Shown: positions 1-25,963 of the stretch, piece by piece
How positions within the stretch are numbered: the first letter of the stretch is position 1
How the letters are laid out: each line of letters opens with the position of its first letter
Source of the DNA: Polytrichum commune
Lineage: Eukaryota > Streptophyta > Polytrichopsida > Polytrichales > Polytrichaceae
Direction of reading: 5' to 3'
Length of the DNA: 64,000 bases
Assembly (NCBI GenBank): GCA_950295325.1
Contig: OX485803.1
Location: 46,515,554 to 46,579,553, forward strand
Made by a program: the position numbers and the translations under genes
Notes under the pieces: generated by a model
What the model was told of the DNA's origin: nothing
What the model saw: only the letters and a program-made list of their open reading frames with translations
The model's database searches: none

Positions 1-265
1 AAGGGTTTCTTTCTACATGTACACACCCATTTCTCTTATTTTTTGTCCTTCAATAACGGTGGCCGTTAACGGCCATCCTTATTGTCATTTCAGATTTTCT
101 TTCATAAGGGTTTCTTTCTACATGTACACACCCATTTCTCTCATTTTTTTTTCCTTCATATTCATATTTCAAATTTTGTTTCTACATGCATGCATGCATG
201 TGTGTATGCATTCATTTCCTTCATTTTTTTTCTCCAAGAAGAGTGGCCGTTAACGGCCACCCATA
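1..265. repeat. Tandem duplication with a GGCCGTTAACGGCC palindrome
   Basis: The phrase AAGGGTTTCTTTCTACATGT starts at 1 and again at 107, each followed by ACACACCCATTTCTC. A perfect 14-base palindrome GGCCGTTAACGGCC occurs near 61-74 and again near 245-258. Both sit upstream of the ParB/methyltransferase pseudogene. They could be protein-binding sites, mobile-element ends or chance tandem growth. No gene is seen here. Confidence 0.6.
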
Positions 266-411
266 TTCAAAATTTAGACTTTTTGGGAATATGTGGTTTT
301 CTCTCTTATGTATACTCTCACTTTCTTTAATGTTTTTTCATTTTGTTTTAGTTTGCATATATGATTTCTTTCCTATCTATATATTTCTTTTGATTTATTT
401 TTGTTTCTCAA

Positions 412-3400
412 GTGGGTGATATGTTTTGTGCTTTAGATTTGGAAGTTGTACATCTTTCTGAAGATTAATTGGAGATGCAATTGCATGCATTTTTTAAGAA
501 AGAAATTGTCAACACATCTTCCCGTCTTGAACGGTTGAGGTATCAACCAAGGGCAAAATCAAACTCAACATTCCACTATGTTGAATGATTGCATTGCCTG
601 TTGTAAGGCCTTTTCTAAAAAATGACGTTATGAACCTGGCTGCACATTTTGTTGCTTGTGGTTATATGGAGGGCAATGGGGTTTTTTATGTGGCCTTGGA
701 AAACAATGAGGGGAAAACAGTAGATGTTACCGATAGTATCATTGAATCTTGGAGTGAAAATTGGGTGAGGGCTAATGGTGCCTTTGAAAAAATATTGTAA
801 GCTGATGAGGACCTCAAAGTTTTTTCTGGCAAAATGTTCATGGTGTGGGACGGAAATCACCGTTTGCAAGCATGGTTGCCCATTATTAATCGAGATCACA
901 CACATGATCCGGTTTGGCATTATGCTGTTGAAAGTATTATTTTGGACGTCAAAGGAGATATTGCAACCATGTTGGCAGCTTTACATGAAGTCAATTGGTA
1001 ATTACTTCATTCTTCTCTTTTTATTTATTCGGTTCATTTGGTTTTTTTTTTAGTTTTTTTTTTATTGTATATCTTTTTTCTTTGGCTTATCATTGGATGT
1101 TTTGTTTTGACAGGAGGAACCAAAATCCTCATGTTTGTACCAATCTTGTTCATAAGCTTTTCCGCATTCAAAGCATTGCTGGACAACCACTTTCATATTT
1201 TGAAAAACTTGTTTCCAAAGAAGATCTTACTGCCGCTGATGCCAAACAAAAATCCAAACATAGGACTTGGTTTACTTTAACTGTTGAGGCTCTTAATGGA
1301 TTTCTATACCAGGTTATTTTTTCTGAAGTATTCGTTTTTCACGATTTTTGTTTTCTTGTATATTTTTCTTGTTTTCTTTTTATTTCGATTTCTATAACTA
1401 TATTTTTTATTGCATCTTATTTTTGGAGTGTGTGATTATTCATACTCTTATATGTTTTTTCGTTGGTGTAGCAAGAGTTGGGAGATGCTGTTGCTACTGC
1501 TCAAAGGAAATTTTATGAGAAATATCATGATCCTGCGCATTGGACTTCGAGTGCAGTAGATGAATTTGTTTCCAAAGCTGTTGAGAGGGTGAGATTGACT
1601 TCTCATTCGGAATTGAAGAAATAACTTCCCATTGCGGATCCTAAACATTCTCCTATGTTCTTAGAGCAGGTGAAGTCTCATTATGAAATTCACGATGAGA
1701 ACCCTGAAATGACTCAAGAAAAACTTTGGATGTTAGCAACTTCGGCAATGGACACATCTATGAAGATTAAGTGGCTTGAGAGGTGGAACAGTCCCCCTGC
1801 TCTTCGTGAGGCTCTCAAGTTTCCGAAACCAAAATTCAATGATATAGAGTTTCCTAAGTGGCTTCATAAAGCTACTTGGTGGGCTCAGGTGATAATTTTT
1901 GTCCTTCTATTATGTTTGGTTCATTTATTTTTGGTCTGTGTTTTTAATTTATTTTTAATATTTTTTCAATCATTTAATTCTTCTAATCTTTATTTTGTAT
2001 TTGGCAGTTGGCTATTGAAACCGAGAAGCTCTTTGATGCTACTGTGGCTGATATGCATGTGTCCATCAACTACCTTCCAGATGGTATGGATCCTTTGCCC
2101 ACTATTTTTTATTATGTGGAGGCAATGCGCATATCATTGTGGGATACTGCATTTTTTCGTGAATTCAGTGTGGATAAGGGAGTTCACAAAAATCATAACA
2201 TTGACAAGCAACTCAATTTTTATCCGGCCATGCGAAGGGTATTTTATAGGTACTTCAAATATGTCTTATTTCCTGCGAAAGCCATTTCCAAATCTCCCAT
2301 TTTTTTGGCTAATTATTTGAATATCGAAAGTGAAGAATGCATGTTCACAGAGGGGATCATGAAATCTTGGGATCCTGTGCATTTTGAAAAATGTGGGTGG
2401 TATTTGGATTGTCCTCTTAAATCACCTCCCACTTTTGATATTGCCCTTCGAGATTCCATTCAACCCGCCCTCAAAGGTACAACTAGAATTGTTCCCTCTA
2501 TAATGGATGAGGATGTAGCCAAGATGCCAAAAAAAAAAGTCTAAGCCTAAAAGACCAATCCTCCTCATTCATGATAGCGATGAGGATGCTCCAATTCAAA
2601 GCAGTCTCAACAACCTTGTAGTTACTGAACCTTCTTCTTCAAATCTAGAGGCAACGTTTCATACTTCAAAGCGGCAGAAAACAACCCCTTCTCCTACCTT
2701 GGATATGCCTCCCAAGCTTAGAGGTATGATGAATATCTTGCCTCCTTTACCTGCAAATCATACATCTTTGGATTTAATCTTGAATGATTCTTTTGTGAGG
2801 ATTATCGAGGATAAGAAGCAAACAGGTACATTTCGTGCACCATATGACGACATTGTGGCTTTTCTATCAAAGGTGAGTTCATTTTATTTTACAGTTTTTA
2901 CTTTATTCAAGTTTTATAAAGTTTCACTCGTATTTTGTTACGTTATTTCATTTTTTATTTTTAATTGTCGTCTTTATTCATGAATTGTAATATTTTATCT
3001 TTGTAGGTTGGTGAAGGTAGACAATTTTTTTTTGATGGCCAATTGCAAAAGAAACCTGTTGTGGACCTCATTATTGCGGATTACCCAGATGGTCTTCGGG
3101 TTCCAGGTGTCTCGGATCCGCCATCTCAAATTCCCCCTTGGAATGCCAACATTCCAAGTTTTCTCAACATATTGATGGCATTTGCTCTTACCTATCTTCA
3201 TGATGATGGAGCATTCCTTTTGTTTTATCCTGACAGTTCTGCCGTGAAGAGAGAAGTGGCAGAATTCTTCAAGAACTATAAGTTCAAAATCAAGGATGAG
3301 TGGACTATCATTAATTCCTTGCACTTGGCAAATCCTATGAATCCGTCCAAAAATGTAAGTAGCAATTATGACATTTCATTTTGATTGGTTCATATTTGAA

Positions 3401-4350
3401 TTTGTTTTTATGTGTTGTATATTTTTTAATTTCAGTTTTATATTGACTTTCAGACTTTGAAGTTCAAGGCTTTGTTATTGGTTCGATCATTTTCAATTCC
3501 CATTGCGAGGCAACCTCAAGAACTTCTGATCACCATGCATCCTTCAATTCCTAAGGTCGATTTAGCCACAGATGACGTTCTCTTCAACTCTATTACTATG
3601 GAAACTCAATTATGTAGACAAAGAGATGGCAAGCCATGGAGGGGTGCAAAGGAGAAGTCTGAAGTTTTAATGAAGTTATTTGTTCATGGTTTGAGTCCTG
3701 TAGGCGGTATTGTGGCAAACATGACTGCTTCTACAGGTATTGTATATTACAGTATCCAATTATTCGTTCATATGTTTTTTAATTCATACTTCAATGTTCG
3801 TATTTTTCTAATTAATGTTTTGTTTCATCCAGGTTCTTCTATTAGAGCGGCTCATTCATCTAATCGTCATATTCTAGCATTAGAAAGTGATGCCGAACTC
3901 TTTGATGAGGTACTAAAACCTCTTCAAACACCTACAAATGATACCTCATGCGATGGTATGGACTTTGATGATGATACTCCAATAGAAGACGCCGCACTTC
4001 TTAACTTATGTGAGTAAGTTTTTTCATTGTTTTTTTCTCAACAACTTCAATTGCAAATTCTAGATTTTGTATTCTAATTTGCTGTTACATATTCTAATAC
4101 ATGGTTTGTTGTTTGTAGTTGGATGAATCCATCGCCGATACAAATCTCGTCATTTTATCGGCACCGTGGATTATTGAGAAGCCCCTCTCTTAGTCCTCAG
4201 AGCCTCCCTGTGTATGCTGAGGCTTTAGCTGAAGCTTATGCTAATGCTTCATCTACTTCATCTTCAATTTCACCTTCACCTCGTAGATATTACGATACTA
4301 GAGTATGTGCTTATTTTGAACTCAGTGCATCTGAGTCCGACGATATTTAA
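412..4350 (+). pseudogene. Disabled ParB-like / DNA-methyltransferase-like fusion gene
   Basis: I infer exons at about 412-997, 1114-1312, 1472-1888, 2008-2872, 3007-3354, 3454-3736, 3833-4013 and 4119-4350. Splice phases are compatible throughout. The first part has a ParB/sulfiredoxin-like signature: PVVRPFLKND near 594, then VWDGNHRLQAW near 843-875. A middle part of about 550 residues is unrecognised and ends in a lysine-rich, NLS-like PKKKSKPKRP. The last third looks like a permuted N-4/N-6 DNA methylase: DLIIADYPDG at about 3064-3093 sits where motif IV (DPPY-like) belongs, a hydrophobic LHDDGAFLLFYPD follows, then motif-I-like TASTGSSIRAA across the 3736/3833 junction and RHILALESDAELF. 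Disablements are TAA at 466-468, a frameshift near 584-588 (VE then MIA), TAA at 798-800, TAA at 1622-1624, and one extra A in the A10 run at 2529-2538. The fold assignments are motif-based inference. It could be a decayed host gene or mobile-element cargo. Confidence 0.68.
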
Positions 4351-4966: not shown

Positions 4967-5033
4967 ACCGCTCACAAATTACCGCTCATCGCTCACCGCT
5001 CACTGCTCACCGCTCACAGCTCACCGCTCACAA
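4967..5033. repeat. CCGCTCAC short tandem repeat
   Basis: About seven imperfect copies of an 8-10 base unit (CCGCTCAC, variants TCGCTCAC, CTGCTCAC, CAGCTCAC). It lies exactly at the upstream edge of the LINE coding remnant. Confidence 0.85.
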
Positions 5034-5043
5034 GATAGCACTC

Positions 5044-6702
5044 CCCAATGAACTACAACAAGTCCTAAAACAAGCAACGAACACACACATAGACACCCAT
5101 CCCATCAAACCCACCCCCACACACTACAATGTTAAATTCTCCAATGCATGGAAAAATGCCCCCCAAAGTAAGCACCCCACGCACTAAGAACATCACTACA
5201 ATACCTTTACCAAACACATACAAACACATCCACCACCTTAAATTCATCCACAACAATGCATATACACAGATGGGTCATATATCCCACCATTCATAAACCC
5301 CGAAGGCCTAATAGATGGAAACACTAGAAGATCGGGAGTATATAGCCCCAACAATAACACCCAAATATCAAAAAGACTACATGGATACCAAAATATATTC
5401 AAAGTAGAGCTAAATGCAATACTCATCACTATCAAAACTATACAAATCACCCGAATAGAAACACACATATTTACAAACAACCTTAATATCATATTCTTAA
5501 TAAACAATCATATCCAACATCACAACACCACCACCCACACAAATTACTTATAGCGCCTATAGTACATCACATATATTGGACCCCACACGAAGTCCACATA
5601 CACAAAGTAAGAGCACACTTAGGTATCACTGGAAACAAAATATAGCCGGCACACTAGCTAATGAAGGGACACTCAAAGAAAAACCAACCAATATGCCACA
5701 CATACACATAGCCCACCCTACCTCCTACTGGCTAGCCAGTTGCCCAATAGCCACACATGACGGAGCCATCCGTAATCTACACACATTAATAACAAAAGAA
5801 CACGGAAACTGCGAAACAATATTAGCCAAAAATCAATTTCCATATGTAGACAAGTGGTTATTAAACACCCAAATAAACCAGAAACTCTCCAACTGTTTAT
5901 GGCGTAACGAGAATGTGCCAGATACCCAAATCACCCAAACACTAAAATTCAAATATGCCCAATACATGGGCAACCATAGGAAAAACATCTTCTGGGCCCT
6001 CACATACCAAAATCCTAACTGTACATTATGCCATAAAAATGAAAGAGACACATGGCCCCACCTCCTATCTACATGTGAGCATCCATACCTAAACGGACTC
6101 ATAATTGCAAGACATAACAAGGCAGTACACCTCATCACTCAGACACTACAAGCCAATAAAAACACTCGGTTCTTCACCCTGACCAATGCAGGCCATCGTA
6201 ACAACCAACCACAAGAACAAAGAGTCCCATAATGGCTCCTTCAATGCACATGCCCCCCCAAAACCATGCCAATGCCAAGCCAAACTAAAACCAAACATCT
6301 TGTGCATGATCAGAGCCCCAACCCAAACACAACTACCCATATCACCATCCCCCAACCACACAATCCAATTCATCGAATTCACATACTACCATGATAGATT
6401 CCCTGAACAAGCCCTCACACCTAAGCGCACCAAATATGACCCACTAATTAACGCCATCTAAAATAATGGATGGAAAACCAACCCTCTTATTGACATCATG
6501 GCTGGACTAAGAGGAGCCATACATGAACACTCCTTAGACAAACTCACAAAACTAAAAATCCCAAAATCCAGCATTAAAAACCTCATGAAAGGCATACACC
6601 AGAATGCTATCAAATACCTCACATACCTAGTACTAAACAAGAGAAAACTAGACAACAAACAAACACTTGCCCCCCACCCCCACCTTAACAAACTGGGATA
6701 AC
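5044..6702 (+). mobile_element. Decayed non-LTR retrotransposon (LINE) 3' half: RNase H, CCHC finger, C-terminus
   Basis: Translating across stops gives LPNELQQVLKQATNTHID near 5044, then RNase H landmarks: YTDGSY near 5260 (first Asp), KVELNAILITIKT near 5400 (Glu), HIFTNNLNIIFL near 5465 (Asp replaced by Asn), and RYHWKQNIAGTLANEG near 5615, corresponding to the H..G..GN.AD block. The longest open piece is 5576-6232. It includes CTLCHKNERDTWPHLLSTC, the C-X2-C-X8-H-X4-C finger common after LINE RNase H domains. Further coding-like text reaches 6702 with frameshifts, for example AGLRGAIHEHSLDKLTKLKI at about 6501. Several stops and shifts make it inactive. The reverse transcriptase and endonuclease parts are absent. 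The strand is markedly rich in A and C. Confidence 0.8.
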
Positions 6703-7609
6703 TAGTACACCACAGAGCCCACCTCCCAAAGGAGGCATAAAACCTTATACTGCATCACAAAATACCGTGATCAGTGTAAGGCCAACGGGCTCATATACAA
6801 GCGTTATTTTTCCTTTTCTCTTCTTGAGGACTTCAAGTGACATCTTCATTTTCAATTTGGGGTTGCGTTTTGAAGGATTGTTTTGAGAGAGGTATATTAT
6901 GAAGGGCCAAATCTCATTTGAAGGGCATTGAAGACTTCAATCATGAACACTAGTCATGAGGCCCACTTTATACACAATTTGGGACTAGCCCAGGCCCGAT
7001 CATGTGCAATTAAGCCCTCAATTCAGTCCAATTTTATCGACTTTTAATTTGCGGGCTCAACCTTGTCACATGTAAAGTGATGAGGCTTGATTTTAGGTCC
7101 TGATGTTTTTGAGGGGACATAATATTACTTAGTTGATGACTTGTGTTCTTGGGTCCAGCAATAGATTTGAGAATAAAGATTTCGGATGCCACAATCCTAG
7201 TGCTTCAGACTCAACCTGAAGTGAGGGCAACTCAATAATGTTTTGGAAAGTGTAGTGAAGAGCAATAGCATTTTATGGGCCAATGGTAGAGATGTTCATT
7301 ATTCAACCGATGAGCCCAATCCGGCCCATGTTGAGAGTTTGGGTCGAGGAAAACTCGTCCTAATTTCTTCAAGTCGGCGTAAAGGTTTGATGCCAAGATT
7401 ATGCCACCTAAGACTCCACATGGGATGAGCAAGTGTTCAAGGGCCAACACTACTATAAAGACCTTGGGCCGGATTTGATGAAACCGAGCGATCCTATGGG
7501 GCCACATTTTTAGGGTTCAATCTACCCCTCAATTCAACCCAAGTATAAAGTGGGCCTAAGTTGGACATCATGTGACTCACTTGGACGTTTTGTGCCACAT
7601 GCCCCATTT
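6703..7609. other. Spacer, no gene recognised
   Basis: Contains the probable 3' tail of the LINE (to roughly 6830) and scattered TTGGGTCC/GGACCCAA phrases related to the MITE family that starts at 7610. No convincing exon was seen on either strand. Confidence 0.45.
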
Positions 7610-7897
7610 AGGGTGGGCTTACACTAGGGTCCTCCAAAGACCAAAGGAGACTCCAACATCGATTTATCGTATTGGTCGTGAGCAAAATTTGGACCCAAGA
7701 AAATTTACACAAGGGTTTGGGTCCGAGATACAAAGAACAAAAAATTGAAGTGGCTCTAATGTGGCATCACTATTTTGTCAAATTTGGTTGGTCCCAACTT
7801 AAGAAAATGCTCCTCCCATTTTAAGACACCATTTTCCAAGCTTGGGTCCATTGAAGGTTGTTTTGAGCCCCAAGTTCTTCTGGACCCATACCCTAAT
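7610..7897. mobile_element. MITE, GGGTCC family, copy A
   Basis: Begins with AGGGTGGGCTTACACTAGGG and ends with GGACCCATACCCTAAT, an imperfect inverted match. Internal phrases (a CCTATTGG-like core, GGACCCAAG, ATGTGGCA.CACT) recur in copies B, D and E. Non-coding. Confidence 0.65.
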
Positions 7898-8218
7898 AAG
7901 GGTGGAATTAGTGTTTAAGGCCCAAGTCCAAGAAACTCTTAACACCGAGCAATCCTATTGGTTGAGAGCAAAATTTTGGACCCAAAGAGCTTACGTTAGG
8001 GCTTGGGGTCCAAAGCATGAGGAAATGAAGTTGCACAAATGTGGCACCACTTTCTCGCCAAAATCTCGCAAGTCCCAACTCAAGAAAATACTCCACCTAA
8101 ATTGCAAAATTCATCTTCAAGCTTGGGTCCAAAAAGTAAAAGGTCCATTACAAGGTCCATTACAAGGTCCTATGGACCCAATGTTTCTTGGATGTTGGAC
8201 CCAAACCCTAATGTAAAC
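7898..8218. mobile_element. MITE, GGGTCC family, copy B
   Basis: Starts with AAGGGTGGAATTAGTGTTTA directly at the end of copy A and ends with GGACCCAAACCCTAATGTAA. It shares CAATCCTATTGG, GTGGCACCACTTTCTCGCCA and CAAGAAAATACTCC with copy E in the GBPL3-like leader intron. An open frame across it is only the repeat. Confidence 0.7.
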
Positions 8219-10520
8219 AAGCTTGTAATTCAGTTTCTCAAATTGGGTTGAGTGTTTTCTAGAGTGGAGGCCATTGATATTTGGCAAGAAAGTGATGCCA
8301 CATTAGCACCACCTTATTTTTCCATACTTAGACACAGACCATAGTATAAAATCCAAAAATTTGCGATTGACCAATAGAATCGATTGGTTTTAGAGTCTCT
8401 TTGGTCTTTGACCCAAGTGTATGACTAACCTAATGTAGGGTTCATGCCATAAGATTGTTTTTCCCTAACATTGATGGTAGAGTTAATTCATGTCTCAGCA
8501 TGTCATGTTGGTAACTAACTTAAATGTAACTTAATAACAAATTCTTGGTACATTAGTAATGAGTATCACACTGGAAGCTTTGCATTGAAATGCAACCCTT
8601 GGTGTTGGTAAATTAGGACATGCAAATTAGGAGGGTCGACTACCATTGAGGCTAGGTGTAGGTGCCTTCATAGTGCTCTAGGTGCGAAGTGTATATAAAT
8701 TATCATTAGCGGTAGATGTAAATTCAAGGGTGGTGCTAAGGAAATGGACAGTTGATAATTTATCAAAAATTATCAAGTTACAGGCAAAGATTTTAACATA
8801 GCATTGAGAACTAAAGTATTATGTGGCACTACTAGCTCCTCATGCAACTGTGACCGTTTGATAATACCAGAAATTATCTCATCAACCAATTAGCAATTGT
8901 AATTCATGGAAATCATAGTTTCAAGTTTCATAATCAAGCTTGAGATGCTAAACTTACAGACCACTTCCATGTTTGCAAATTACAGACTCTTCAACTTTGT
9001 CAACAAGGTAAGAACCCCCCTTACTTCAATTGCCTCATCCAAGCTTCATGAATGAAAGTGATTCTATGTGAAGAGGTTCTGCTTGTATGTGCCTAGAATG
9101 GCATGTTCACAAGTGATATGTACAAAATCAGAATCTGGCCAACTTAATTGTGCTTTGAATTCCAATTAACACCACTGAATAGCTAGCTAAGACAAGAGAC
9201 CACATAAGGCACACATACCTTAGCCAACCGTTGCCATCCAACATCTCGTGTGCAGGCTGAACCTATAGTACTCACAGAAAACAGGACAGAGAAGCACTGA
9301 TCGGCTGAGAGTTGCCAATGTTACAAAATGACTACAGGAAGTACACTCAATAGACATAACTATTGAAGTCTACAATTCATGATGTTGCTGATGCATGCTA
9401 ATACAATACTCAACTAAGGTGCACTTCATAACTTTGTAGAACAAGTTTGAGACCTCTCCCAGCACACCACAACCTATGCTCTTCACAGAGTGTAAGTAAA
9501 CACAAGAAACCCCAGGTTATGTGAATAGGTTGCAACAATGATGGTCCATTATCCGTAATAGTTGAAGAAAACCAAATCACCTAAGTTCAATTCGTAGCAG
9601 AGCAATCTCTAAAATTTGATTGGATACTAAATACTACATAACATATTTACTGTACAGGTTTTCACTTTTCATTTTTTGTAGCCCTAATTTTGAATTTTTA
9701 TATCTAGCCTCTATTTACATAGGAAAACTCTCATGGAACGAAAAGAAGACATCCCCTATCCCATTTGAGAAAGGCAAAAAGCACATTAAAGGACCTTCGG
9801 CCTGTTCAATGAAATCAATACATAGATTCTGACTTCAGCTCTAAGACTTTATGTCCTGAGTGAGTCCTTAGCTAATCGAGTCTGCTTCATAAGCAAGAAA
9901 CCATGCAAATAAATAGATAAACCCTTAAAATAAATAATACACCACACAAAAAGGTGTCCTGCGATGAACTTAGAGTAACTTCCTGCTATTTCATTTCGCC
10001 AGGCATAAAAGAGTATCCAAAGACAGAAGGATAGACATTGAATAGCATATAAATGCCAACTGGTACATGTCTAGCACATGAAGCATCAGTGTAAAGTTCA
10101 ATCAGACGTGCGGGAAACACAATACATGTGGTATCAGAAAATCAATACAGTTTTATACATTTTCTCAATACACAGTGTAGAAATACACAAGGTACAAAAA
10201 TGTACAATGGGGTACAGGTGATGCCTACCACTAAATTACATATAAGCAGATTTTGCCCCTCAATATCTTGTCTGACAGATGTCTTCAGAGATGTGATCAC
10301 CAGAAGTGGATTCCACACGAACAAGTCATCCTTAAAGTTCACAAGATTTGGAGATGGAACAAAAATGTAGTGGCGGCACTAACCCTGAAGGATATGTGGC
10401 CAAAAGTACTTGTGGCTGTTTTTGCTGTGCAATGAAATCTGCTGGCTTCACTGGAGGTCCATCTTCAAGTTGTTTATGATGACAAACTCTAATGTACCAC
10501 CTGAGATATTCTTCCCCTTT
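8219..10520. other. Spacer and 3' flank of the ERD15-like gene
   Basis: No exon chain recognised. Near 8870-8900 there is a CTCATCAACCAATTAGCAATTG phrase resembling the start of the dispersed CAATTGCAAATCA repeat. Near 9195-9225 ACCACATAAGGCACACATAC resembles the end of that repeat. The 3' UTR of the ERD15-like gene should lie just below 10521; I cannot place the polyadenylation site. Confidence 0.4.
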
Positions 10521-25660: not shown

Positions 25661-25963
25661 GGATGAATTTAAACTAGGGTCCAAGACCAAAGAACCTCCA
25701 AAATCGAGCGATCCTATTGCTCGATAGAAAAACTTGGAACCCAAGGATTTTACACTAGGGTCAGTGTCCAAGATATGGAAAAATACACTGGAGCTAATGT
25801 GGCATCACTTTCTCGCCAAATTTCGGCCATCCCCACTCAAGAAAATACTCCTCCTCCTAGTTTGAGAGACCAATCTTCCAGATTTGGTCCAGTCTTGAGT
25901 CCGAAAGTAAAGTACATGATTGAGGGGCATTTTGGACCCCGGACCCTAACGTAAACCCACCCT
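25661..25963. mobile_element. MITE, GGGTCC family, copy E, in the GBPL3-like leader intron
   Basis: Left end GGATGAATTTAAACTAGGGT, right end GGACCCTAACGTAAACCCAC plus CCT. The interior matches copy B (GATCCTATTG, GTGGCATCACTTTCTCGCCA, CAAGAAAATACTCCTCC). The paralogous leader at 11.7-13.2 kb lacks it, so the insertion came after the leader duplication. Confidence 0.75.

Follow-up and report, generated by a model that had tools for sequence, protein, structure and literature searches.

Interest is active in transposons that bring epigenetic tools of their own, and the literature surveyed here spans VANC, TET/JBP, SET domains and C5 methyltransferases. In Arabidopsis, VANC is described in two papers as binding motifs in fast-changing tandem repeats and removing silencing marks (PMC5735166; PMC10398659), and its target repeats lie upstream of and inside the introns of the genes of the element (PMC5735166). 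The moss element described below resembles VANDAL in being a large DNA transposon of a plant and in carrying an accessory gene as well as a transposase-like one, which in the moss is putative (PMC5735166; PMC10398659). Fungal transposons with TET/JBP dioxygenases likewise place a gene for a DNA-modification-type enzyme in a DNA transposon (PMC12730594), although the enzyme class, the host kingdom and the element differ from the moss case. Retrotransposons of dinoflagellates and charophytes with captured DNMTs are also mobile elements that carry a DNA methyltransferase; these are C5 cytosine enzymes (PMC5890265), whereas the moss element is a DNA transposon and its domain is of the N6/N4 type, with the catalytic motif altered. 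A literature search whose coverage lay mostly outside subscription papers returned no description of such an element.

The window, a stretch of 64,000 nucleotides of the Polytrichum commune genome (contig OX485803.1, 46,515,554 to 46,579,553), contains a gene which, in a decayed state, represents the accessory gene of a DNA transposon that is high in copy number and likely Mutator-like. That a transposon carries both a ParB/Srx-type and a methyltransferase-like domain is close to certain. The first-pass annotation had described the gene by itself, at 412 to 4350; that extent holds for the gene, and the whole unit is larger, running from L046:2661 to window 5046. The gene-only view missed a transposon carrier with its own termini and target duplications, a second gene on the opposite strand and arrays of palindromes. 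The features of the window are:

1 to 342, plus strand: end of a tandem array of ~105-bp units upstream of the gene, with the palindrome GGCCGTTAACGGCC at 61-74 and 245-258
412 to 997, plus strand: ParB/Srx-like exon, start uncertain, with DGNHR at 849-863; the window copy has one frame change and three stops in frame here
1114 to 1312, plus strand: exon 2 of the accessory gene, without a known domain
1472 to 1888, plus strand: exon 3, without a known domain, in-frame stop at 1622-1624 in the window copy
2008 to 2872, plus strand: exon 4 and low-complexity linker, with a shift of frame in an A-run near 2530, at the site first read as a nuclear localization signal
3007 to 3354, plus strand: exon 5, methyltransferase-like domain, with the motif-IV-like ADYPDG at 3076-3093
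3454 to 3736, plus strand: exon 6, where the domain ends; it carries motif I (TASTG), and the intron interrupts the last codon
3833 to 4013, plus strand: exon 7, following motif I, with RHILALESD at 3865-3891
4119 to 4350, plus strand: exon 8, serine-rich C-terminal tail and stop
5024 to 5046, minus strand: right end of the element, GGGGAGTGCTATCTTGTGAGCGG when read on that strand, with TCACCGC heptamers before it
5047 to 5055, no strand: AATGAACTA, which recurs at the left border (L046:2653-2661) as a target duplication in a LINE

Seven GT-AG introns fit this gene, and the motifs first read in it are all in place, including motif I, which the predicted splicing of TASTG (3724-3736) to SSI (3833 onward) completes. 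The motifs are not a product of chance: a database search with the methylase part gave 57 proteins at E 1, the best at 1.8e-73, in which they recur, and DGNHR is retained in 110 of 120 listed relatives of the ParB exon. The window copy itself is broken: stops interrupt the frame at 466-468, 582-584, 798-800 and 1622-1624, and the frame shifts twice, near 555 and within the A-run near 2530. The reading of PKKKSKPKRP as a localization signal crosses the second of these shifts. The exons of the two domains would be spliced into a single mRNA. A plus-strand open reading frame at L046:8293-8718, basic-rich and then acidic-rich, may belong to the accessory gene as a further, upstream exon; its counterpart in L042 has 15 database relatives at 61-81% identity.

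The left part of the window element lies outside the window and its left tip is lost. The element sits in a LINE, of which the related copies L057 and L058 are without the insert, and a second copy (L047/L042) sits in a copia element, flanked on both sides by GTGCATTTAC. The LINE copy and the copia copy are 95-96% identical over the aligned pieces of the unit, the latter with an additional insertion of ~2.8 kb, and three subfamily A copies share the end of the window copy at CACTCCCC. The terminal inverted repeats are imperfect (GAGGGAAGCTATCTTATGAGCG versus GGGGAGTGCTATCTTGTGAGCGG). Allowing at most one mismatch, the genome contains 269 right-end and 245 left-end sites, and the reversed controls give 0. 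Ten further elements were delimited, nine with 10-bp target duplications (five perfect, four with one mismatch) and the tenth with a 9-bp duplication with one mismatch. On contigs C1 to C3, 23 of 47 exact right ends (leaving aside a further two at the C3 end, beyond the listed left ends) face an exact left end within 20 kb, compared with two wrong-order neighbours; the 23 elements so defined span 5.6-15.9 kb, 14 of them 6.0-7.1 kb and two 12.3-12.5 kb. Among the surrounding repeats, the interrupted LINE occupies window 5047-6800 and has an RNase H-like frame (YTDGSYI), and 40 related LINE copies were scored genome-wide from 358 candidates. The ~2.8 kb insert, on the left side of the second A copy, occupies L047 ~1060-3894 and is partly common to L027, L041 and L054; related repeats, 66-76% alike and in both orientations, occur at window 7608-8433 and 25669-25891.

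The contents of these elements vary. Of 91 exact right ends, 19 have a methylase exon within 6 kb (best 100 of 150 matches), 50 have a listed ParB exon within 8 kb and 13 have both. The ParB exon is alone at 37 of the 91 (among the matches listed), and in 34 of these it lies 1.6-2.2 kb inside the end. Such ParB-only elements look like deletion derivatives because many of their exons carry TGA (among the matches listed); they are common, and the full protein is therefore not needed in cis. The left part of the element is occupied by the opposite-strand gene (L046:3535-7177). MULEs encode a DDE transposase that often includes a SWIM zinc finger. At E 1, Pfam gave no transposase family for pieces of the broken copies of this gene, with SWIM at E 0.1 falling below the cut-off, and one piece had no PDB match; by eye only, a D, an ADS-type D and a CNLAET block can be read as in DDE enzymes. 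Target duplications of MULEs measure 8-11 bp (PMC6446971); duplications in this range and terminal inverted repeats are both found here, and the element is likely Mutator-like because of its 10-bp duplications and inverted repeats. Beside a subfamily C copy lies an open reading frame with DUF7869 (L044:8957-9694; E 2.5e-36), which likely belongs to another mobile element.

The searched genome comprises 408 Mb in 64 contigs, seven of which are 42-78 Mb. It contains at least 150 scored matches to the methylase exon (1102 candidates) and at least 150 to the ParB exon (967 candidates), which bears out the early suggestion that the gene had spread; the companion suggestion, domestication as a host gene, is not supported, given the mobility of the copies and the broken state of many of them. 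In a grouping of our own, the copies fall into subfamilies A (~95% identity to the window methylase exon), B (~68%), C (~55%) and D (~46%), and both domains are kept in all four. The exons of the two domains are paired on one strand: when the best 100 of 150 methylase matches were compared with all 150 listed ParB matches, 59 of the 100 methylase loci had a ParB exon upstream within 6 kb (median 2363 bases), against 0.125 expected at random, one had another arrangement and 40 had no nearby ParB exon among the matches listed. Relatives elsewhere, also anticipated, include one of the ParB exon in the moss Ceratodon purpureus, with 57% identity over 94%. This relative (P0146) is the named protein M758_UG129100, whose UG tag suggests the U sex chromosome.

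Selection was assessed on exon 5 from 29 of 37 loci, eight having been dropped for stops, gaps or short length. Copies of subfamily C are under purifying selection relative to one another, with a dN/dS of 0.09 (nine of ten pairs usable; median dS 0.38), the sound value of the set. Ratios between groups are rough, with dS above 2: 0.12 for A-B (15 of 117 pairs usable, the others saturated), 0.12 for A-C (2 of 65) and 0.28 for A-D (26 of 26); B-C, B-D and C-D pairs are saturated and the single D-D pair is unusable. Within A the ratio is 0.71 (43 of 78 pairs) and within B 0.63 (18 of 36), and the recent A and B copies look to be decaying near neutrally.

The ParB/Srx-type fold proposed for the first exon is supported by structure prediction, and the domain is accordingly best described as having a predicted ParB/Srx fold. 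By sequence, four members matched no ParB family at E 5 (Pfam, PHROGs), and profile searches of the PDB at E 10 gave no ParB either. ParB partition proteins are further characterized by CTP binding and a sliding clamp. The domain differs from ParB, Noc, KorB and sulfiredoxin in having no sequence-profile match; its model adds a helical stretch at residues ~110-140, and it has no demonstrated helix-turn-helix.

For the methyltransferase-like half, the permuted N6/N4-type assignment agrees with Pfam, PHROG and PDB profiles and with alignments. PF01555 matches all four members at E 1 (window copy 0.21), and the D member alone exceeds the cut-off (27.4 bits against 26.7); PHROG 3008 matches at 3.2e-9, and a four-row profile finds DpnA (7.8e-5) and CcrM (0.052) in the PDB. 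The D sequence has 23.7% identity to an enzyme of Lactococcus phage LW81 over 86% of the query (E 4e-5), and a comparison at the profile level gave 93.3%. The domain match and the order of motif IV before motif I place it with the beta-type enzymes, and with DpnA, CcrM and LW81 it has in common the permuted order and motif I. The beta-type catalytic motif is (D/N/S)PP(Y/F/W). The DPPY of the phage and bacterial enzymes is replaced in the moss element, aligning with ADIPEG, AEYPDG or ADYPDG in the four subfamilies, so that the position reads D/E-Y/I-P-D/E in four of four subfamily rows (row C of the alignments mixes two copies). All 24 readable database relatives (of 57) have [A/V][D/E/N][Y/F]P[D/N], found with a search pattern that would accept DPPY. 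Motif I is kept, and the catalytic aromatic is replaced by an acidic residue. Since no copy read has an unaltered catalytic motif IV, the methyltransferase-like half is unlikely to write 6mA or 4mC; it more likely binds DNA or SAM, or has an unusual substrate. The prokaryotic or viral ancestry first put forward is plausible because the nearest named outside relatives of the methylase are phage and bacterial enzymes, but viral scans (methylase and ParB) and a bacterial and archaeal scan (methylase only) returned no confirmed relative. In the stretches read beside the LW81 enzyme and that of Enterococcus phage 9184, where most genes are hypothetical, no ParB gene is annotated.

The candidate target of the protein is a palindrome. 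In subfamily A the ~105-bp units contain perfect palindromes of up to 34 bp centred on CCGTTAACGG, and in subfamily C the same centre, GGTGCCGTTAACGGCACC, occurs mainly in the intron that precedes the methylase exon, with one upstream occurrence in L044. The core is absent from the five B and D stretches scanned, which have other arrays, for example 22 copies of 295 bp; that array lies at L055:548-7049, upstream of a D ParB exon. Genome-wide, GCCGTTAACGGC has 621 sites, compared with eight for the reversed control. Palindrome sites lie close to the exons of the family: all 50 sites listed, drawn from the first 28.2 Mb of C1, have an exon match, ParB or methylase, no more than 6.1 kb away, and all 12 clusters that they form come within 1.4 kb of one, whereas random placement would put 0.08 clusters within 5.5 kb.

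Element-specific motif repeats near or inside genes, as in the VANC system, are therefore found in A and C, and the motif-bearing repeats change quickly between subfamilies in both systems (PMC5735166; PMC10398659). The parts differ: VANC has DUF1985/DUF287 (PMC5735166), while the moss-element protein combines a ParB/Srx-type fold with a methyltransferase-like domain. Neither DUF was present in Pfam scans of the gene pieces at E 1 or of the ParB exon at E 5, and the candidate target, unlike that of VANC, is a long palindrome. Because the layout resembles the VANC system and the parts are unrelated, the protein is best explained as an element-specific DNA-binding, likely anti-silencing factor. 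It would recognize the palindrome arrays of its own element, spread or clamp there as ParB does, and so free the element of host silencing. That an accessory protein binds its own arrays and prevents silencing is, taken as a whole, an evenly balanced proposition; an anti-silencing role for the putative ParB-methyltransferase protein, argued by analogy, falls just short of even. A parS-ParB-like system rebuilt in the plant nucleus, which would load on the arrays, spread, and use a pseudo-methyltransferase to block or read base methylation and create a silencing-free zone, is doubtful. Weighing against the anti-silencing reading are the five B and D stretches without the core, the near-neutral ratios within A and B, the 40 of 100 methylase loci without a listed ParB exon, the many ParB-only derivatives, the opposite-strand gene with no transposase family and the ParB-like domain with no ParB family by sequence.

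Bacterial ParB folds form clamps on palindromic sites, and the protein might instead be a transposition cofactor that gathers arrays and ends into the transposase complex, like a partition or synapsis factor. Two 6.7-kb derivatives (C1:4.05 Mb and C1:10.40 Mb), in which no methylase exon was found among the matches listed, keep the palindromes and both ends, but the arrays are internal, those of subfamily C mostly intronic, and the ends have TCACCGC heptamers that resemble a terminal site of their own; this account is unlikely. Somewhat less probable still is an active DNA methyltransferase that would place 6mA, 4mC or another methylated base on palindromes or ends, so that the element recognizes itself or tunes transposition. 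In its favour, phage and bacterial N6/N4 enzymes have a matching motif order, motif I (DLTAGTG / DLTASTG) and EK..L..L block, subfamily C is under selection, and retrotransposon DNMTs can methylate CG de novo (PMC5890265); against it, DPPY is altered throughout the rows and readable relatives. Pieces of host genes are often picked up by Mutator-like elements (PMC6446971), and many copies carry stops, as would be expected of a captured passenger gene without function; the retention of both domains in four diverged groups, the relatives in other sources, the ratio within C and the rougher values between groups make this very improbable.

An element-specific, likely anti-silencing factor remains the preferred explanation. 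A ParB fold joined to an N6/N4-type methyltransferase, in many copies and with a strongly enriched palindrome alongside, would be a new tool among those that transposons carry, and the palindrome and protein together make a direct test possible, of palindrome binding and of a change in host silencing. For the annotation of moss genomes the finding is a warning that some 'hypothetical protein' genes of the ParB-methyltransferase type are transposon genes.
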